Assembly: GCF_015752315.1 (NCBI RefSeq)
Contig: NZ_JADOVJ010000001.1
Location: 4,580,501-4,644,500, forward strand
Length of the DNA stretch: 64,000 bases
From: Nocardioides luteus
GTDB lineage: Bacteria; Actinomycetota; Actinomycetes; Propionibacteriales; Nocardioidaceae
Direction of reading: 5' to 3'
The notes below the pieces were generated by a model. That model ran no database searches. It saw only the letters and a program-made list of their open reading frames with translations, and was not told the origin of the DNA. Positions 30,154 to 64,000 of the stretch are shown piece after piece. A program made the position numbers and the translations under genes. The first letter of the stretch is position 1. Each line of letters opens with the position of its first letter.

Positions 30154-30195
30154 TTGCCGTTCATTCGACCGAATCACCTACAGTTGACCGCTGAC

Positions 30196-32034
30196 ATGGG
30201 CATGACCGCGGCAGACCACGAGACCTTCGAGGCGTTCTATCAGGACGTCCGCGGACGCCTCCTTCTCCAAACCTGGTCGCTGACCGGGGACCTGGAGGCT
30301 GCCAAGGCCGCCGTGCGCGGCGCGCTGGTCATCACCTGGCACCACTGGCGCAAGGTGAAGCCGATGGACGACTTCGAGCGCGAGGACTGGGTGCGCCCGA
30401 TCGCCTGGTCCAAGGCGATCCGCAACCACTCGGTGCCGCTGCTCCACCGCGACCAGACGATCGCTCCCGAGGCCCGCAGCACCCTCTCCGCGCTGCGCAG
30501 CCTGCCGCTCCACGACCGCAAGGTCTTCCTGCTCGGCCACCTCACCAGCGTCGACCTGGCCCAGCTGGCCCGCGAGGTCGGCACCCCGATCAGCCGCACC
30601 GAGACCGACCTGCAGGGCGCCAACGCCGCCATCTGCGCCGAGCTCGGGATCGCGCCCGAGCAGCTGCAGTCCATCTTCGACCCGCTCGTCGACGTGCTCA
30701 CCGAGCAGCCCTGGCCGAAGACCTCGACGATCACCACCGCCGGGGCCGTACGCCGCCGGGTGCACACCACGATCGGCGCGGTCGCGGCCATCGCCGCCCT
30801 GGTCGGCACCGGCTTCTTCGTCACCCAGGACGCCGAGAGCGAGCCCCGGCTCAACACGCTCTCGATGCAGTCGGCGGCCGAGGAGTTCGAGGTCGAGCCG
30901 AGCCAGATCCCCGGCAAGAAGCTGACCGCCAAGGACCTGATGACCGAGGACGAGGTGGCGAAGATCTACGGCGGCAGCTGGGCCGTCGACATCTCCTCCG
31001 ACAACCTCGAGGGCACCGGCCTCACCATCCCCTGCCAGGCCGACACCTCGGCCGACAAGCGGCCGGTGGCGAGTCTGGCGCGCACCTTCACCGCGCAGGC
31101 GAAGGCGACCACCGCCGGCACCACGATCGAGTCGTCCGTCGACGCGAAGGCGGCGGCTGCTGCGTACAAGAAGATGCAGGGGTGGTACGCAGCATGTGCC
31201 GAGCCCCGCTACCAGCTGATGTTCACCGAGACGGTCCAGGGCATCGGCGACGAGGCGACCCTCTTCACCTATCGCGACTGGGAGAACAGCCGGGCTGTGA
31301 CTTACGGCGTCGCGCGCACCGGCCGGCACACCGCCGCGGTGACCGTGAAGACCGAGGGCAAGTCCAGCACCACCGCGGCCAAGACCTCGACCATGCTCGG
31401 CACCGCGGTCCACAACCTCTGCTCGATGCCCGGCGCGGGTGCGTGCGTGGAGACCAAGCGGCCGCGCGCGACGGTGGTCCCGATCCCGACCGGCAAGGCG
31501 CCGGGGCTGATCAACGAGACCGACCTGCCCCCGGTCAGCACCATCGGTGACCCCTGGGAGGGCACCGAGGCGAAGGCGGCCAAGACCAACCCGGCCCAGA
31601 CCCGCTGCGACAACACCGAGTTCAACGCCAAGGGCATGTCCGGCGCCCAGACCCGCTCCTTCGTGATCCCCGAGACGAAGAAGAAGCTCGCCCCGATCTT
31701 CGGGCTCACCGAGACCGTCGGCAAGTTCGGCTCCGCCAAGGAGGCGCAGGCGTTCAACGTCGCGATCAAGGGCCGGCTGGACAAGTGCAGCGACAAGCAG
31801 CTCGGCAGCCACGTCACCCAGCTCGCGACCGAGTCCATCAAGGACGGCGCGATCACGGTGTGGTACATCCGGGTCGAGCTCGAGAACACCTCGATCTACT
31901 ACCGGATGGCCGCGATCCGGCGCGGTGCGAACGTCGCCCAGATGAGCTTCGTGCCCGACGGTGACGCCGACATCAGCAACTCCGAGTTCGTCGCGCTCGC
32001 CAAGCGCGCTGCGTACCGCCTCGACTACCTCTGA
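30196..32034 (+). CDS. Sigma-like domain/TM/two-lobed ectodomain fusion
   Basis: A 612-residue protein with no simple name. Residues about 8-75 align by eye with ECF sigma region 2 (FEAFYQDVRGRL, GDLEAAKAAVRGAL, EDWVRPIAWSKAIRN). Residues about 95-155 align with region 4 (LSALRSLPLHDRKVFLLGHL, LAQLAREVGTPISRTETDLQ), but the recognition-helix end is acidic/neutral rather than KARLARGR as in the neighbours. One membrane helix follows (TIGAVAAIAALVGTGFFV, about 190-212). The extracellular part has two lobes, each with Cys residues 50-80 apart (for example IPCQADT/YAACAEP and TRCDNTE/LDKCSDK), reminiscent of PknH-type sensor domains. ATGs at 30196 and 30202 lack a clear Shine-Dalgarno. It may be a membrane-tethered decoy or sensor for the two sigma factors downstream; this is inference. 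Confidence 0.72.
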   Translation: MGMTAADHETFEAFYQDVRGRLLLQTWSLTGDLEAAKAAVRGALVITWHHWRKVKPMDDFEREDWVRPIAWSKAIRNHSVPLLHRDQTIAPEARSTLSALRSLPLHDRKVFLLGHLTSVDLAQLAREVGTPISRTETDLQGANAAICAELGIAPEQLQSIFDPLVDVLTEQPWPKTSTITTAGAVRRRVHTTIGAVAAIAALVGTGFFVTQDAESEPRLNTLSMQSAAEEFEVEPSQIPGKKLTAKDLMTEDEVAKIYGGSWAVDISSDNLEGTGLTIPCQADTSADKRPVASLARTFTAQAKATTAGTTIESSVDAKAAAAAYKKMQGWYAACAEPRYQLMFTETVQGIGDEATLFTYRDWENSRAVTYGVARTGRHTAAVTVKTEGKSSTTAAKTSTMLGTAVHNLCSMPGAGACVETKRPRATVVPIPTGKAPGLINETDLPPVSTIGDPWEGTEAKAAKTNPAQTRCDNTEFNAKGMSGAQTRSFVIPETKKKLAPIFGLTETVGKFGSAKEAQAFNVAIKGRLDKCSDKQLGSHVTQLATESIKDGAITVWYIRVELENTSIYYRMAAIRRGANVAQMSFVPDGDADISNSEFVALAKRAAYRLDYL

Positions 32035-32147
32035 GCAGTTCTCGGTATTTCTCGTCCGGATGCAACCGGACCTGCCTCTCGTGCATCTGACTGATCGAGG
32101 CTGGCGCAGGGCCAGATCGGCGAGGCCCAGTCTGGGGGAGGCAAGCG

Positions 32148-32651
32148 ATGGACGAGGACGAGTTCGACGCGTTCTACAACGCGTCCTACCGCCGCGTGTG
32201 CGCGCAGGTGTACGCCATGATCGGCGACTCCGACGAGGCCGCCGAGTGCGTCCAGGAGGCCTTCGCCCGCGCCTGGGCGCACCGGCGCAAGCTGTCCACG
32301 GTCGACTACCCTGAAGCCTGGGTCCGCACCACCGCCTACCGCCTCGCCGTGGGCCGCTGGCGCCGCAAGAAGTACGCCGGCCGGGTCACCGACAGAGCCG
32401 TCGGCATCCGGATGGAGATGCCGGCCGTGGACGAGACCCATGTCGCGCTCGTCGCCGCGCTCAAGAAGCTCCCCGAGGCCCAGCGCCAAGCCATCGTCCT
32501 GCACCACATCGCCGACCTGCCGGTCCATCAGGTGGCCGCCGAGGTCGGCGCCCCCACCGGCACCATCAAAGCCCGCCTGGCCCGAGGACGAGCCACGCTG
32601 GCCGAGCTACTCGCCGACGAAACACCCGGCGCCGTCTGGAAGGAGGCCTGA
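32148..32651 (+). CDS. SigE-family ECF sigma factor, copy 1
   Basis: A 167-residue ECF sigma factor. Region 2 is EFDAFYNASYRRVCAQVYA...ECVQEAFARAWAHRRK...EAWVRTTAYRLAVGRWRRKK; region 4 is LKKLPEAQRQAIVLHHIADL...HQVAAEVGAPTGTIKARLARGR. It fits the actinobacterial SigE-family (TIGR02983-like). The ATG has GGAGG 7 nt upstream. It ends 1 nt before the ATG of the membrane partner gene. A nearly identical copy lies at 34292. ECF factors usually transcribe their own operon, but no matching promoter pair was recognised upstream of both copies. Confidence 0.88.
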   Translation: MDEDEFDAFYNASYRRVCAQVYAMIGDSDEAAECVQEAFARAWAHRRKLSTVDYPEAWVRTTAYRLAVGRWRRKKYAGRVTDRAVGIRMEMPAVDETHVALVAALKKLPEAQRQAIVLHHIADLPVHQVAAEVGAPTGTIKARLARGRATLAELLADETPGAVWKEA

Positions 32652-32652
32652 G

Positions 32653-34179
32653 ATGAGTGATCCGATCTCGCGTCTGGACCAGTTCCGCGCCGACACCCCT
32701 GGAGCACCGATGAAGTCCGCAGCCGAGGTACGCCAACGGGGTGATCAGATCCGACGCCGCCAGCGCGCCATCGTCACCGCCGGTGCGGTAGCCCTGGCCG
32801 CGGTCGTCGCCGGGCCGATCATCTTCCTCTCCGCCGGGTTCGGCGAGCGGGCCACCGAGCCGGACCCTGCCCCGGCGCCGAGCCAGACACCGAGCACGGC
32901 GCCGAGCCCGTCGTCCTCGGCGCCGGCCGCGGACCTCACCCGTGCCCACCTCCCGACCGCGGACGACCTGGTCGCCGACGAGCCCGCTCCGCGGTGGGTC
33001 GAGGACCAGACGTACGACGACGAGGGCAAGAGCGACTACAACGAGTGCCTGCCCGAGTCGCTCCGGGACATGGGGGCGACCGCTGCGGTGCGCCGCGACT
33101 TCCTCCCCCGGTCCGGCGAGGAGCTCTCGGACTCCGCCGGGACGCTGAAGGCCGTCGTCGCCGAGTTCTCGTCGGCCAAGGAGGCCGAAGCGGCCCGCGC
33201 CGAGGTCACGAAGGCCGCAGCGAGCTGCTCCGCCCTCGACGCCGAGACCGCCGGCTCGTTGCCGGTCGAGGGCGGCGTCGCCTCGGCCGGGGAGATCAGT
33301 GTGGTGACGTACCAGCCCGACGACCCCGACATGAACGCGGTCTGGGAGGTCGCGACGGCCGTCGTGACCGTCGAGGACCGGGTGCTGGTGATGACCCGGA
33401 AGCGTGGCGTGCAGAGCTACGTCCCGCCGACCGACCTGCGGACCTCCGCCGTCAACGCCACCTACCGGATGGTCGGTGCCCGGCCACCCGCCGCATCGAC
33501 GTCGTCGCCGGCGTCCGACCCGGCGTCGAACCCGCCGTCCTCGCCCCCGCCCGCCGACATCCTCGGCGACGCGCAGCTCGTCTCGGCTTCGGCGCTGCCG
33601 GCCCTGCCGCTGGAGGGCGAGTCCTCGGCGACATGGCAGCAGGTCGCCGCCCAGCCGACCCCGACCCTCTACTGCCAGGGCGCGTGGCTCTCCTCGTTGA
33701 AGGCCGCCGAGTCGGTCAGCCGGGAGTTCCGGCTCGAGAACCCGGGCGAGATCGGCAAGGTCAACGTGACGGTGCTGGAGTTCGCCACGAAGGCGGCCGC
33801 CGACGCGGCGTACGAGACCGTCCACGGCTGGCTCGACGGCTGCCCGGCGACGATGGCCGACGCGAAGCTCTTCACGGCCGGGCCGGTCGAGTCCATCGAG
33901 ATCGATTCCACCCCCGCGATCGACCGCGCCGCACAGACCCTCGCCGAGTACGCCGGTGACTGCGGTGACGGGAACTGCGACGCCACCTGGTACGACCACC
34001 AGACCGTCGCTCAGATCGGGACCCGGCTGGTGCTGGTCACCCACGCCGAGGCCGGTGGTCCGTGCCCGCCGACCCGGGCCTGCCCGCCGGAGGAGGCCTC
34101 GGACTACACCGAGTGGGACAACCGGGTCGCCCAGACCGTCGAGGCCACCGTGGGCCAGGCCGTCGTGGACCTGCGCTGA
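32653..34179 (+). CDS. Bitopic membrane partner of sigma copy 1
   Basis: A 508-residue protein of unknown function: about 37 cytosolic residues (SDPISRLDQFRAD...SAAEVRQRGDQIRRR), one membrane helix (AIVTAGAVALAAVVAGPIIFL), a Pro/Ser linker, and two extracellular lobes. Lobe 1 (about 95-275) has NECLPESL and AASCSALD; lobe 2 (about 305-508) starts near GDAQLVSASALPALP and has YCQGAWL, GCPATM and further Cys pairs. Both lobes share the pattern of a Cys near the start, a VVAEF/VTVLEF strand and a helix ending in a Cys, so they look like repeats. The cytosolic tail is far better conserved between copies than the lobes, suggesting contact with the sigma factor. No zinc anti-sigma motif (H-x3-C-x2-C) is present. 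AGGAGG lies inside the sigma gene's last codons. Confidence 0.75.
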   Translation: MSDPISRLDQFRADTPGAPMKSAAEVRQRGDQIRRRQRAIVTAGAVALAAVVAGPIIFLSAGFGERATEPDPAPAPSQTPSTAPSPSSSAPAADLTRAHLPTADDLVADEPAPRWVEDQTYDDEGKSDYNECLPESLRDMGATAAVRRDFLPRSGEELSDSAGTLKAVVAEFSSAKEAEAARAEVTKAAASCSALDAETAGSLPVEGGVASAGEISVVTYQPDDPDMNAVWEVATAVVTVEDRVLVMTRKRGVQSYVPPTDLRTSAVNATYRMVGARPPAASTSSPASDPASNPPSSPPPADILGDAQLVSASALPALPLEGESSATWQQVAAQPTPTLYCQGAWLSSLKAAESVSREFRLENPGEIGKVNVTVLEFATKAAADAAYETVHGWLDGCPATMADAKLFTAGPVESIEIDSTPAIDRAAQTLAEYAGDCGDGNCDATWYDHQTVAQIGTRLVLVTHAEAGGPCPPTRACPPEEASDYTEWDNRVAQTVEATVGQAVVDLR

Positions 34180-34232
34180 TCAGGGGACCCAGGTGCTATT
34201 GAACTTTACGGTCACGCCCGTCACCGCCGACA

Positions 34233-34254
34233 CTGACGCTCTGGCAGGCGTCAG
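34233..34254. promoter_or_regulatory. CTGACGC-N8-GCGTCAG repeat upstream of sigma copy 2
   Basis: A 7-bp perfect inverted repeat with an 8-nt spacer. GCGTCAGG then recurs directly at 34260-34267. It lies 38-59 bp upstream of the second sigma gene and is absent before copy 1, so the two cassettes may be controlled differently. Confidence 0.4.
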
Positions 34255-34291
34255 GGGACGCGTCAGGCAGAGCCAGCCGGGGAGGCGAACG

Positions 34292-34801
34292 ATGGACGAG
34301 GACGAGTTCGACGCGCTCTACAACGCGTCCTACCGCCGGCTGTGTGCTCAGCTGTACGCCATGATCGGTGACTTCGACGAGGCGGCCGAGTGCGTGCAGG
34401 AGGCGTTCGCGCGCGCCTGGGCGCACCGGCGCAAGATGTCCTCGGTCGACTACCCGGAGGCCTGGGTCCGCACCACCGCCTACCGCCTCGCGGTCGGCCG
34501 CTGGCGCCGCCGGAAGTACGCAGGCCGCGCCGCCGACAGGGCCGTCGGTGCTCGCACCGAGATGCCGGCCGTCGACGAGGCCCACGTGGCTCTCGTCGCG
34601 GCCCTGAAGAAGCTCCCCGAGGCGCAGCGCCAGGCCATCGTCCTGCACCACATCGCCGACCTGCCGGTCCACCAGGTGGCCGCCGAGGTCGGCGCCCCGA
34701 CCGGCACCGTCAAGGCCCGCCTGGCCCGAGGACGAGCCGCCCTCGCGGAGCTGCTCGCCGAGGACAATCCCGGCGCCGGCGCCGTCTGGAAGGAGGCCTG
34801 A
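34292..34801 (+). CDS. SigE-family ECF sigma factor, copy 2
   Basis: A 169-residue ECF sigma factor, nearly the same as copy 1 (for example EFDALYNASYRRLCAQLYA against EFDAFYNASYRRVCAQVYA, and region 4 HQVAAEVGAPTGTVKARLARGR with a single Ile/Val change). The ATG at 34292 has GGAGG at 7 nt. Since recognition regions 2.4 and 4.2 are almost unchanged, both copies probably read the same promoters. It is followed after 1 nt by its membrane partner. Confidence 0.88.
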   Translation: MDEDEFDALYNASYRRLCAQLYAMIGDFDEAAECVQEAFARAWAHRRKMSSVDYPEAWVRTTAYRLAVGRWRRRKYAGRAADRAVGARTEMPAVDEAHVALVAALKKLPEAQRQAIVLHHIADLPVHQVAAEVGAPTGTVKARLARGRAALAELLAEDNPGAGAVWKEA

Positions 34802-34802
34802 G

Positions 34803-36317
34803 ATGAGTGACCCGATCTCACGCCTGGACCAGTTCCGCGCCGACTCCCCCGGAGCTCCGATGAGCTCCGCTGCCGAGGCCCGGAGGCGGGGCGACCAGAT
34901 CCGCCGGCGCACCCGTGCCGTCGTCACCGCCGGCACAGCTGCCGTCGCCGCGATCGTCGCCGGACCGATCATCTTCCTCTCCACCGGGATCGGCGATCAG
35001 GGCGTCGACCCGGCACGGAGCGACAGCATCAGTGCGGCCGAGTCCAGCGCGGCGGACTCCGTGTCGCCGTCCGATCTCACCCGCGCCAACCTGCCGACCG
35101 AGGACGACCTGGTCGCCGACGACCCCTATCCGGCGTGGGTCCAGGAGCAGACCTACGACGGCGAGGGCACGGACCCCTACAACGACTGCCTGACCGAGTC
35201 GCTGGGTGACTCCGGTGCGACGACGACGTTCCGCCGCGACTTCGTCGCGAAGCCAGGCGCGGAGATGGCGGACGCGGCGGGCACGCTGAACGCCGTCGTC
35301 GGCGAGTTCGGCTCGGCCGACGAGGCCGAGAAGGTGAGCATCGACCTCTCCGACGCCGCGATCTCGTGCTCCGGCGTGGACGGCGCCGAGCTGGCCGGCA
35401 CGCTGCCGGTCGAGGGCGACGTCATCTCCAGCGGCAGCATCGACGTGGTGACGTACTCCTCCGACGAGCCGGACATGAACGCGGTCTGGGAGGTCGCGAC
35501 GGCCGTCGTGTCCGCCGAGGACCGAGTGCTGGTGATGACCCGGAAGCGCGGTGTCCAGGACTACGTCTCGCCGACCACCCTGCAAACCTCCGCGGCCAAG
35601 GCCGCCAACCGGCTGGTCGGCGTCACGCCCCCGGCCGAGCCGTCCACCGATCCGGCCGCCGACCCGACGGCCACCGGCTCCCCGACCGAGGAGCGCTTCG
35701 GCGACGCCAACCTGGTCGCGGCCGGCGAACTGCCGGCGCTCGACCGCTTCGAGAGCGCCCTCGGCTGGAACCGCTACACGCCCACCCCCGACGTACCGAC
35801 CCTGGCCTGTCAGAAGGAGTGGCTCTCCACCCTCGGCGCGACGGCGAAGGTGGCGGCCGACTACCGCTGGGACACCGACCGCGCCATGGTCGGCCAGGTG
35901 CATGTGGCCGTGCTCGAGTTCTCGGACGTGAACGCGGCGGGTGCTGCGTACAACGAGGTCATGGAGTGGATGGAGGTCTGCCCGGCCAACAAGCTCGGGG
36001 TCGACCCCGAGGTCACCGCGCTGCCCAGGGACGTCAGCGCCGACCTCGATGCCGGGCCGAAGCGCGCGGCGCGGTCGCAGGCGACGTATCCGGGGTCGGA
36101 CGGCAACGACAGCATCTGGTTCGAGACGGAGCTGGTCGCCGAGTACGAGACCCGGCTGGTGCTGGTCGGCTACGCCGAGTCCGCTGGTCCGTGCCCGCCG
36201 AGCACCGGCGACAAGGAGGACCCGTGCTACCAGCCCGACCAGCCTGACTCCTGGCCCGGCCGGATCCTGGCGATCGAGAAGGCGGCGGTGACTGCCGGCA
36301 TCGGCGATCTGCGCTGA
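34803..36317 (+). CDS. Bitopic membrane partner of sigma copy 2
   Basis: A 504-residue paralogue of the protein at 32653: conserved cytosolic start (SDPISRLDQFRAD...GDQIRRR), one helix (VTAGTAAVAAIVAGPIIFL), a Ser/Ala linker and two lobes (lobe 1 with NDCLTESL and ISCSGVD; lobe 2 with LACQKEW, VCPANK and PCPPS). Segments such as PDMNAVWEVATAVV and RVLVMTRKRGVQ in lobe 1 are shared exactly or almost so; lobe 2 is much more diverged. It could sense a different envelope signal while acting on the same kind of sigma factor. Function not established. Confidence 0.75.
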   Translation: MSDPISRLDQFRADSPGAPMSSAAEARRRGDQIRRRTRAVVTAGTAAVAAIVAGPIIFLSTGIGDQGVDPARSDSISAAESSAADSVSPSDLTRANLPTEDDLVADDPYPAWVQEQTYDGEGTDPYNDCLTESLGDSGATTTFRRDFVAKPGAEMADAAGTLNAVVGEFGSADEAEKVSIDLSDAAISCSGVDGAELAGTLPVEGDVISSGSIDVVTYSSDEPDMNAVWEVATAVVSAEDRVLVMTRKRGVQDYVSPTTLQTSAAKAANRLVGVTPPAEPSTDPAADPTATGSPTEERFGDANLVAAGELPALDRFESALGWNRYTPTPDVPTLACQKEWLSTLGATAKVAADYRWDTDRAMVGQVHVAVLEFSDVNAAGAAYNEVMEWMEVCPANKLGVDPEVTALPRDVSADLDAGPKRAARSQATYPGSDGNDSIWFETELVAEYETRLVLVGYAESAGPCPPSTGDKEDPCYQPDQPDSWPGRILAIEKAAVTAGIGDLR

Positions 36318-36471: not shown

Positions 36472-37845
36472 GTGTCCACCGCCCCCACCACCAGAAGGCG
36501 GCTGCCGCTTCCGTCCTTCTCGGTCCAGATCATTCTCGGCCTCGCTCTCGGCGTCGCCCTCGGTGCCATCGCGCGAGCGATCGGGCCCGGTGCCGGCGAC
36601 GAGGCCAACTGGCTGACGACGACCCTCGCCACGATCGGCAACTCGTTCGTCGCACTGCTCAAGGCCGTCGTCGTACCGCTGATCTTCACGGCCATCATCG
36701 CCTCGATCGCCAACCTCCGCACGGTCAGCAACGCGGCCCGGCTCGCCGGCCAGACGCTGCTCTGGTTCGCCGTCACGGCGGCGATCTCGGTCGCCATCGG
36801 GATCGGCCTGGGGCTGCTCTTCCGGCCGGGCAGCAACACCGCGGTCAGCACCGCCGACGCCGCCGAGGCCGGTGCCTCCGCGTCATGGCTCGACTTCCTG
36901 CAGGGCCTGATCCCCGGTAACTTCCTCGGCCTCCAGGCCTCGACCAGCGTCGAGCAGGTCGGCGGGAGCCCGCTCGCGGAGACCGCGCTGAGCTTCAACG
37001 TGCTCCAGGTGCTCGTGGTGGCGCTCGCCATCGGCATCGCGGCGCTCAAGACCGGCGAGAAGGCCGAGCCGTTCCTCGCCTTCAACCGCTCCTTCCTGGC
37101 CATCGTGCAGAAGGTGCTGTGGTGGATCATCAGGCTGGCGCCGATCGGCACCCTCGGCCTGATCGGCAACGCGGTCGCCTCCTACGGCTGGGACTCGCTG
37201 AGCTCCTTGGCGTGGTTCGCGGTGGCCGTCTACGTCGGCCTGGCCCTGGTCCTCTTCGTGGTCTATCCGGTGCTGCTGCGTGTCCACGGCCTCAACCCGA
37301 TCGCCTACTTCCGCGGCGCCTGGCCGGCCATCCAGCTCGCCTTCGTCTCGCGCTCCTCGGTCGGCACGATGCCGGTGACCGAGCAGGTCACGGTCAAGAA
37401 CCTCGGTGTCCCGCAGGAGTACGCCTCCTTCGCCGTCCCGCTGGGCTCGACCACCAAGATGGACGGCTGCGCGTCGATCTACCCGGCGATCTCGGCGATC
37501 TTCGTCGCCCAGATCTTCGGCATCGACCTGAGCATCACCGACTACCTGCTGATCGCCTTCGTCTCGGTGGTCGGCTCGGCCGCGACCGCCGGACTGACCG
37601 GCGCCGTCGTGATGCTGACGCTCACCCTCTCCACCCTCGGCCTGCCGCTGGCCGGTGTCGGCCTGCTGCTCGCGATCGACCCGATCCTCGACATGGGCCG
37701 CACCGCCGTCAACGTCGCCGGCCAGGCGCTCGTGCCGACGATCGTCGCCAAGCGGGAGGGCATCCTCGACATCGACCGCTACCGCTCCGCCTCCGCGGAA
37801 GGACTGCTGGCCGACGAGGAGCCCGCGGACGCAGTCGCCGCCTGA
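36472..37845 (+). CDS. Dicarboxylate/amino acid:cation symporter
   Basis: A 457-residue member of the SLC1/DAACS family, importing dicarboxylates or amino acids with Na+ or H+. The HP1 motif is SRSSVGTMP, the TM7 motif GSTTKMDGCA replaces the more usual NMDGT, and TM8 carries DPILDMGRTAVNVAGQ. The Lys in place of Asn in the TM7 cation-binding motif makes classical Na+ coupling doubtful. GTG start with GGAG somewhat far upstream (10-11 nt). A strong terminator follows. C4-dicarboxylate import would feed the succinate dehydrogenase and succinyl-CoA synthetase encoded in this window. Confidence 0.85.
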   Translation: MSTAPTTRRRLPLPSFSVQIILGLALGVALGAIARAIGPGAGDEANWLTTTLATIGNSFVALLKAVVVPLIFTAIIASIANLRTVSNAARLAGQTLLWFAVTAAISVAIGIGLGLLFRPGSNTAVSTADAAEAGASASWLDFLQGLIPGNFLGLQASTSVEQVGGSPLAETALSFNVLQVLVVALAIGIAALKTGEKAEPFLAFNRSFLAIVQKVLWWIIRLAPIGTLGLIGNAVASYGWDSLSSLAWFAVAVYVGLALVLFVVYPVLLRVHGLNPIAYFRGAWPAIQLAFVSRSSVGTMPVTEQVTVKNLGVPQEYASFAVPLGSTTKMDGCASIYPAISAIFVAQIFGIDLSITDYLLIAFVSVVGSAATAGLTGAVVMLTLTLSTLGLPLAGVGLLLAIDPILDMGRTAVNVAGQALVPTIVAKREGILDIDRYRSASAEGLLADEEPADAVAA

Positions 37846-52747: not shown

Positions 52748-53395
52748 CTAGAGCAGGCGGCGGTCGTTGGCCCAGCGAGTGAGCTCGTGACGGCTCGACA
52801 GCTGCAGCTTGCGCAGCACGTTGGACATGTGGGTCTCGACCGTCTTGATCGAGATGAACAGCTCTCCGGCGACCTCCTTGTAGGAGTAGCCGCGGGCGAT
52901 GAGGCGCATCACCTCGCGCTCTCGTTCGGTCAGACGGTCGAGGTCCTCGTCGATGTCGGCGATGGCGATGGTGCCGGCGAAGGCATCGAGCACGAAGCCG
53001 GCCAGGCGCGGCGAGAAGACCGCGTCTCCCCCGGACACCCGCTGGATCGCGGCGACCAGCTCGGCGCCGGTGATGGTCTTGGTGACGTAGCCGCGGGCAC
53101 CGCCGCGGATGGTGCCGATGACGTCCTCGGCCGCGTCGGAGACCGACAGCGCGAGATAGCGCGGCGAGCCGTCGACGGCCGGGGCCTTGCGCATCACCTC
53201 GACGCCGCCACCACCGGGGAGGTGCACGTCGAGCAGCACCACGTCGGGCTTGCCCTCCGCGATCGCCTTGACCGCGGTGTCGACGTCCTCGGCCTCCCCG
53301 ACGATCCGGATGACCGGCGACCGGCTCAGCTCGGCGCGTACGCCGGTGCGGAACATCGCGTGGTCGTCCACGATGACGACCTTGACCTCACTCAT
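52748..53395 (-). CDS. NarL/LuxR-family response regulator (LiaR-like)
   Basis: A 215-residue regulator. The receiver has the acidic pair DDH (10-12), the phosphorylatable Asp in VVLLDVHLPG (about 56), and Lys in YVTKTITG. The LuxR-type HTH is LTEREREVMRLIARGYSYKEVAGELFISIKTVETHMSNVLRKL. It overlaps the histidine kinase gene by 4 bp (ATGA), so they form a two-component pair. It probably controls the divergent PspC-domain genes. Confidence 0.93.
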   Translation of the reverse strand: MSEVKVVIVDDHAMFRTGVRAELSRSPVIRIVGEAEDVDTAVKAIAEGKPDVVLLDVHLPGGGGVEVMRKAPAVDGSPRYLALSVSDAAEDVIGTIRGGARGYVTKTITGAELVAAIQRVSGGDAVFSPRLAGFVLDAFAGTIAIADIDEDLDRLTEREREVMRLIARGYSYKEVAGELFISIKTVETHMSNVLRKLQLSSRHELTRWANDRRLL

Positions 53396-63226: not shown

Positions 63227-64000
63227 TCAGGTCAGCGCCTGCGGGAGCCCGAAGGCGGGGAAGAGATGCGGTTCGAACGTGGTGATCTGAGCGATCCTGC
63301 CGTCGACCACGCGGAGCACGTCGAGCGTCTGCGGGCGGTAGATCGTCGTCCCCGGGCGGCGTACGTAGCCCGCGACCGCCGGCATCCGGTTGGCGCTCGC
63401 CGGGACGAAGCGCCACTCCCCCAGGTAGGTCGGCGAGGACGGGTCCAGGTTGGGCAGCACGAAGTCGATCAGCGCCTGCCGGGTGGAGAACCAGAACGGG
63501 TTCGGCGGCATGGTCAGCACCGCGTCGCTGGTCAGCAGGTCGGTGATCCCCTCGCGCCAGTTGCTCTCCCCCGCGGCGATGTAGGCGTCGATGACCTTGC
63601 GCTCCTCCTCGGTCGGCCCCTCGGTGCGCCAGGCCGACCGGTCCTCGGGGAGGTGACGGCGCAGCGCGGGCTTGGCGCGCTGGAGCAGCGAGTTGACCGT
63701 GGCGACACTGACGTCGAGCGCGGCCGCGGTGTCGGCGGCCGACCAGCCGAGCACCTCCCGGAAGACGAAGACCGCCCGCTGCTGCGGGGTCAAGTGCTGG
63801 ATCGCGGTCAGGAAGACCAGCTCGATCGTCTCCCGTGCGACCGCCTCCTCCTCGGGGCGCTCCGGCTCCAGCAGGGAGTCGGGGAACGGCTGGAGCCACT
63901 CCAGCAGCTCCGGGGGCTCACCGGTGCCGTGGTCGAACCCCGGCAGCGCGGCGTACGTTCTCGGGCGTCGCTCGTTGCGGCGCAGGAAGTCGAGGCAGGT
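63227..64000 (-). CDS. Sigma-70 family factor with SnoaL-like C-terminal domain (partial)
   Basis: The 3' part (257 codons plus stop) of a sigma factor whose start lies beyond the right edge. Visible are the end of region 2 (TCLDFLRRNERRPRTYA), region 4 (AIQHLTPQQRAVFVFREVLGWSAADTAAALDVSVATVNSLLQRAKPALRRHL) and a SnoaL/NTF2-like C-terminal domain (EEERKVIDAYIAAGESNW to the end). This resembles the TIGR02960 group that includes mycobacterial SigG. In related ECF groups the SnoaL domain modulates activity in place of an anti-sigma factor. The SDR gene follows 109 bp downstream. Confidence 0.88.
   Translation of the reverse strand, partial: TCLDFLRRNERRPRTYAALPGFDHGTGEPPELLEWLQPFPDSLLEPERPEEEAVARETIELVFLTAIQHLTPQQRAVFVFREVLGWSAADTAAALDVSVATVNSLLQRAKPALRRHLPEDRSAWRTEGPTEEERKVIDAYIAAGESNWREGITDLLTSDAVLTMPPNPFWFSTRQALIDFVLPNLDPSSPTYLGEWRFVPASANRMPAVAGYVRRPGTTIYRPQTLDVLRVVDGRIAQITTFEPHLFPAFGLPQALT

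Follow-up and report, generated by a model that had tools for sequence, protein, structure and literature searches.

A window of 64,000 nucleotides (nt) from Nocardioides luteus (assembly GCF_015752315.1, contig NZ_JADOVJ010000001.1, positions 4,580,501 to 4,644,500; all coordinates below are those of the window) contains three adjacent loci, in which an extracytoplasmic function (ECF) sigma factor or sigma-like domain is coupled to a membrane protein with an ectodomain. In the first locus, both parts form a single polypeptide, FUS. Since its sigma half no longer has the basic recognition-helix residues nor, in most relatives, the glutamine (Gln) in contact with the clamp, yet is under purifying selection, FUS is judged by sequence comparison to be a pseudo-sigma anchored in the membrane, not a transcription factor tethered there. 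The other two loci are split pairs, SIG1-MEM1 and SIG2-MEM2, which are best read as units of ECF sigma factor and membrane anti-sigma factor with a PknH-like sensor.

30196..32034, + strand: FUS, pseudo-sigma, one membrane helix and two-lobed ectodomain, 612 amino acids (aa)
32148..32651, + strand: SIG1, ECF sigma factor, 167 aa (PF08281, PF04542 and TIGR02937 above cut-off)
32653..34179, + strand: MEM1, putative membrane anti-sigma factor, 508 aa
34292..34801, + strand: SIG2, ECF sigma factor, 169 aa (Pfam, TIGR02937)
34803..36317, + strand: MEM2, partner of SIG2, 504 aa

This layout of one fused locus and two pairs with 1-nt gaps had been proposed in an initial annotation and is confirmed here, while the interpretation given with it is supported in part. 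The single membrane segment likewise holds, since in every membrane protein the windows of highest hydrophobicity fall together. A two-lobed ectodomain is seen in both models made, that of FUS (lobes at residues ~240–415 and ~430–612, mean predicted local distance difference test score, pLDDT, 89.8) and that of MEM1 (residues ~89–276 and ~300–508), although the mean pLDDT of the latter is only 69.8. The designation as an ECF sigma-like domain needs correction for the FUS copy, whose sigma domain is degenerate.

The sigma half of FUS and its promoter

30179..30184, + strand: TACAGT, sigma-A-type −10 element (TANNNT) of the fused gene
30208..30426, + strand: sigma2-like part, residues 5–77; most relatives have Arg at the position of the clamp Gln
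30466..30645, + strand: sigma4-like part, residues 91–150, recognition helix lacking the basic residues found in SIG1
30667..30768, + strand: pre-membrane segment, residues 158–191, related to the N-tail motif of the partners (hhalign)
30769..30825, + strand: membrane helix, residues 192–210 (hydrophobicity; helix 176–208 in the model)
30913..31440, + strand: lobe 1, PknH-ectodomain-like fold
31483..32031, + strand: lobe 2, alpha/beta

ECF sigma-70 factors are recognised by a sigma4 part above cut-off and a basic recognition helix, neither of which is found in FUS of the window: it stays below the cut-offs of PF04542 and PF08281 (12.6 bits for the latter, cut-off 25.7), and for TIGR02983 it reaches 50.9 bits (1.6e-13; cut-off 141.55). 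At four positions of the −35 recognition helix, Lys or Arg occurs in only 0, 2, 2 and 2 of 61 fused sequences, and the clamp-contact Gln is Arg in 49 of the 61. Over residues 1–150, the ratio of nonsynonymous to synonymous substitutions (dN/dS) is nevertheless 0–0.28 among close relatives, with values up to 0.48 in sigma4, and 15 columns are invariant across 67 fused sequences, consistent with purifying selection on the sigma half. Such a switch half, kept yet degenerate, has presumably taken on another role, and the pseudo-sigma may bind proteins instead of promoters. Weighing against this view, PF08281 is matched at E ≤ 0.01 in 49 of 67 fused relatives (best 2.8e-7).

The segment in front of the membrane helix links FUS to the split partners. 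Comparison of residues 150–192 with 69 partner N-tails by hhalign yields a probability of 85% (E 6.2e-6), which increases to 94% (8.8e-8) with the helix included. In the ectodomain, six cysteines (C280, C334, C409, C417, C471 and C531) are invariant across the 67 fused sequences; as an internal duplication, the two lobes receive 55% from hhalign.

With the starts of the fused genes picked by script, 56 of 68 non-redundant upstream regions have a TANNNT that ends 4–18 nt ahead of the start, 54 matches lying at 9–11 nt, against a mean of 2.7 and a maximum of 7 in a mononucleotide-shuffle control. The transcript is thus predicted to be near-leaderless. The promoter of the split sigma factors described below is present in 0/68 of these regions, and the fused gene was accordingly rejected as one of their targets.

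The split pairs, their partners and their promoters

32061..32087, + strand: promoter of pair 1, TGCAACC (32061–32067), 16 nt, CATC (32084–32087); the 16-nt spacing also in 6/6 relatives
32640..32646, + strand: AAGGAGG, ribosome-binding site of MEM1, within the end of SIG1
32713..32766, + strand: conserved pre-membrane motif of MEM1 (KSAAEVRQRGDQIRRRQR), candidate anti-sigma determinant (partner N-tail comparison)
32770..32826, + strand: membrane helix of MEM1 (hydrophobicity)
32917..33480, + strand: lobe 1 of MEM1, PknH-ectodomain-like
33550..34176, + strand: lobe 2 of MEM1

In SIG1 and SIG2, sigma2 and sigma4 exceed the curated scores, which places both in the ECF sigma-70 superfamily (PF04542, 37.4 and 34.5 bits, cut-off 24; PF08281, 46.6 and 49.2, cut-off 25.7; TIGR02937, 66.6 and 62.1, cut-off 42.9). 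Their nearest relatives are the SigE-fam_strep proteins (TIGR02983), of which they are not members by score, since 137.7 and 140.2 bits fall just below the cut-off of 141.55. Promoter-contact residues are retained in the split sigma factors (K141, R146 and R148 in 24/24, R143 in 22/24) together with a promoter motif, so that these proteins look functional and SIG1 and SIG2 are probably active.

Both pairs follow the same scheme, in which the sigma stop codon is separated by 1 nt from the ATG of the partner and an identical AAGGAGG for the partner is embedded in the last sigma codons. The identity of 88.8% between SIG1 and SIG2, compared with 52% between MEM1 and MEM2, points to a tandem duplication with diverged ectodomains. 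A search from −45 to +79 nt around the sigma stop placed the partner start between −44 and +1 nt in 70 of 74 listed pairs. Partner lengths (pairs L169–L248) fall into approximately three classes of 253–323, 394–522 and 597–685 aa, a pattern that would fit ectodomains of one, two or three lobes.

From 74 unique pairs, 69 N-tails remained after rows with weak sigma scores and short partners had been dropped; their consensus before the helix is PLPAAEVRRRGDRIRRR. A short basic motif in front of the membrane is common to the partners and is kept by FUS. As initially suggested, zinc and FecR anti-sigma motifs are missing, no zinc-finger, RskA or FecR Pfam match being detected in MEM1 or MEM2 at E ≤ 10, and the Pfam scan of MEM2 gave nothing at all at this threshold. 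Similarity to the PknH extracellular domain (PF14032), which had been put forward for comparison, was recovered in part: MEM1 scores 22 bits, below the cut-off of 27, MEM2 and FUS are unmatched, and among the fused relatives a match at E ≤ 0.01 is seen in 10 of 67. Gene coupling and the fusions argue for MEM as a putative anti-sigma factor.

Upstream of the sigma genes, a dyad search revealed AACC-N16-CGTA in 37 of 48 non-redundant cases, compared with a shuffle maximum of 6. With a looser pattern, the TGCAACC-N16-CGTA promoter is found within 200 nt for 43 of 55 split sigma genes; of the 12 misses, 11 belong to the N. luteus group, and the twelfth is L198, whose start looks mis-set. In the window and in 6/6 close relatives (L169–L174), SIG1 is preceded by TGCAACC and CATC at the 16-nt spacing, CATC replacing the CGTA of other Nocardioides as the −10 element in the N. 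luteus group. This variant may reflect a shift in sigma2 specificity. Upstream of SIG2 in the window, a search for the TGCAACC element found none. The four outgroup sigma genes described below all carry TGCAACC, 62–93 nt upstream and without CGTA; across the named loci, TGCAACC has a background rate of 0.005 per 130 nt.

Across 15 whole genomes, each of them chosen for carrying the pair, the strict promoter pattern occurs 21 times (13 genomes; reversed control 0): 12 sites are at sigma genes, 4 precede one gene for a secreted protein of ~170 aa and 5 lie elsewhere. Three more genes (L258, L265 and L268, in genomes G079 and G010) also follow this promoter. The secreted protein (L270–L298) was found in 29 of 147 genomes and is absent from the window's own genome; it has no convincing Pfam family (best PF17481, 16.4 bits, cut-off 31.4). 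The split-sigma promoter precedes 21 of the 29 genes, and a site from the strict scan in G032 would make 22. By hand counts uncorrected for kinship, a close split-sigma orthologue (E < 1e-50) is present in 27/29 genomes with the secreted protein versus 56/118 without it (p 4.6e-6).

Distribution, synteny and origin of the fusion

A search of related genomes, as the initial annotation had proposed, revealed that the fused gene is conserved genus-wide. Some part of FUS was matched in 147/147 sampled genomes of the genus, and at least 119 of them (hand count) show a single alignment from residue 11 or earlier to residue 608 or later; the remaining ones have, among the matches listed, two pieces, a partial match or no good match (as in G135, whose best is 8.4e-9). 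Such conservation across the genus is more than chance would give. Outside the genus, 36 of the 38 same-family genomes listed with a match show one full alignment (45 further genomes had no match); of the two exceptions, L140 is full length on direct reading and G340 has weak matches only. The relatives that carry names belong to Nocardioides, and the best matches include N. luteus, N. turkmenicus and N. albus, at 92–96% over the fused protein. With the ectodomain only, a search across the class gave matches in 39 of 394 genomes, almost all of which belong to this family.

Of 80 named loci, which were found through two patterns taken from the sigma half, 78 have the fused gene at full length in a single open frame; a frameshift or assembly artefact was therefore rejected. 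The exceptions are L241, from the same genome as L107, and L246. In the L241/L107 genome (N. ungokensis), the fused gene and surrounding genes, purH among them, are split over several frames, possibly due to sequence errors.

Among 53 family regions, sucD lies within the fetched stretch in 50, and in the maps listed DUF6350, purN and purH are on the opposite side of the fused gene. A split sigma gene is situated between the fused gene and sucD in 26/53 regions, or in 28/53 with L092 and L135, where sucD is outside the stretch. The same address (sucCD ... DUF6350-purN-purH) is occupied by a split sigma and a membrane gene in four outgroup loci (three of family code f4, one from another order); these were fetched through search hits, and the f4 genome G160, whose hits were weaker, was left out. 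An ectodomain with a helix but no detectable sigma domain is found in the same synteny in 13/13 f2 and 7/7 f3 loci fetched. Ectodomain matches guided the choice of these loci, and four f2 genomes in which nothing but sigma-like matches had been seen (G156, G173, G188 and G245) were left out.

A tree of 54 sigma domains unites the fused, local split and outgroup sigmas (100/100) and separates them from six other ECF sigmas. Capture of an unrelated sigma factor by chance is thereby ruled out, with only six other ECF sigmas sampled. The fused sigmas have a single origin (98/88) and longer branches within their clade; the order of the fused, local split and outgroup groups is not settled by this tree. 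A second fusion is present in another genus of the family (L135:4585–6495, 636 aa), where an intact ECF sigma is joined to a partner with the same motif. This recent fusion, which carries the split-sigma promoter, sits one gene from the old fused gene. Fusion consequently arose at least twice. The Rosetta-stone interpretation of the initial annotation is strengthened by L135 and by the split operon at the same address in the four outgroup loci.

Proposed mechanism, alternatives and known systems

The explanation that we consider probable as a whole assumes a two-gene ancestor encoding an ECF sigma and a single-pass membrane protein, the anti-sigma factor, from which working split pairs and a fused pseudo-sigma copy descend. 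The membrane protein would hold the sigma factor via the short basic segment on the inner side of the membrane, and its PknH-like ectodomain would be the sensor. In SIG1-MEM1 and SIG2-MEM2, an envelope signal would release the sigma factor, which would then transcribe its own operon from the TGCAACC-N16 promoter and, in relatives, also drive the small secreted protein from such a site. The fused gene would be an ancient copy whose sigma and partner parts were joined in one chain before the sigma half lost its promoter- and clamp-contact residues; selection would retain the pseudo-sigma domain, with expression from a promoter of housekeeping type. The sequences themselves show the homology, synteny, fusion, residue loss, constraint and promoter motifs, whereas we infer the anti-sigma role of MEM, the sensing, the release, the activity of both split sigmas and the binding of proteins instead of promoters by the pseudo-sigma.

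FUS could instead be a working one-component membrane sigma, freed by proteolysis like ECF52 or IutY and directed to other promoters. The overall architecture shared with ECF48/52/53 and IutY (PMC8999054), a sigma2 fold with basic RRH at 76–78 in most relatives and the intact fusion of L135 are in line with this. Basic residues are, however, missing at each of the four recognition-helix positions in 59–61 of 61 sequences, and the Arg at the clamp position, the low region 4 score of the window copy and the 0/68 upstream regions with the family's own promoter make it unlikely. Less likely again, the sigma half is a relic being lost, only the ectodomain matters, and f2 and f3 represent the end state. 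Although the 13 f2 and 7 f3 loci without a detectable sigma domain in the same synteny, the longer branches of the fused clade and the sigma4 dN/dS would fit a relic, the low dN/dS of residues 1–150 in close relatives, their 15 invariant columns and the persistence of the domain through the whole family speak against it. Least likely of all, the MEM proteins are co-expressed with sigma without being anti-sigma factors; they do lack any known anti-sigma domain, but the narrow range of partner starts, the conserved motif adjoining the membrane and two separate fusions speak against this.

Compatible with the preferred pseudo-sigma explanation is a tentative extension, in which this core gene of the whole family is a signal-gated, membrane-tethered pseudo-sigma controlling proteins, not promoters, a transmembrane counterpart of PhyR. 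A sigma captured by its own anti-sigma factor could, for example, compete for anti-sigma tails. PhyR is a soluble response regulator; FUS differs from the PhyR-NepR-EcfG system of Alphaproteobacteria in being membrane-bound with an ectodomain and in having no receiver domain in the Pfam scan. The combination of receiver and sigma-like domain that marks a PhyR anti-anti-sigma factor is hence not seen in FUS, and weak NF006623 matches occur in 31 of 67 sequences. A PhyR-like decoy, binding MEM-type N-tails in trans and thus freeing the real sigmas, is more doubtful: no split pair lies in the fetched stretch at 25/53 fused-gene loci, the PhyR matches may reflect the sigma fold alone, and the tail motif of FUS itself could occupy the pseudo-sigma in cis. 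The decoy is a special form of the preferred explanation, and the chances assigned to the rivals overlap.

Fused ECF sigmas as such are already known (PMC8999054). Actinobacterial ECF52 (SCO4117), ECF48 and ECF53 resemble FUS in joining sigma, membrane helix and extracytoplasmic part, but contain a zinc finger, and their sigma is regarded as functional (PMC8999054 and PMC5826349). With no zinc-finger Pfam match, a PknH-like ectodomain and a degenerate sigma, FUS falls outside these groups. IutY (ECF243) of Pseudomonas putida, likewise a sigma fused to a membrane anti-sigma factor, serves iron-starvation signalling, proteolysis releasing the active sigma (PMC8999054); FUS has neither a FecR match nor an intact sigma. 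The PknH extracellular domain (PF14032)/TiME of mycobacteria differs from the ectodomains described here, which have no kinase, two lobes and a score below the Pfam cut-off. From CnrH-CnrY and other short non-zinc anti-sigmas the pairs appear to be set apart by a motif of their own (PLPAAEVRRRGDRIRRR). No earlier description of this fused pseudo-sigma is contained in the literature listings searched or in the available parts of PMC8999054, PMC8103513, PMC7406223 and PMC5826349, though the main ECF re-classification paper may contain one. We regard three things as new, namely the existence of the pseudo-sigma state, the fact that it is conserved, and the succession of states found at a single address.

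The sucCD-purN address displays four states, namely two-gene unit, recent intact fusion, old pseudo-sigma fusion and sigma-less ectodomain, and thereby offers a stepwise view of a transcription factor becoming a non-transcribing signalling domain. Having no zinc or FecR anti-sigma domain, the pairs also make up a sigma system that can be tested: its promoter is defined, a secreted target is predicted in relatives, and a short motif is the candidate for the anti-sigma determinant.

Between MEM2 and sucD lies a gene (36472–37845), presumably dicarboxylate-symporter-like, which among the maps listed is found only in close relatives. Further PF08281 matches of the window are on the minus strand (52805–52948, 1.3e-8; 63671–63814, 2.0e-15), and the whole genome has 74 at E ≤ 0.001.
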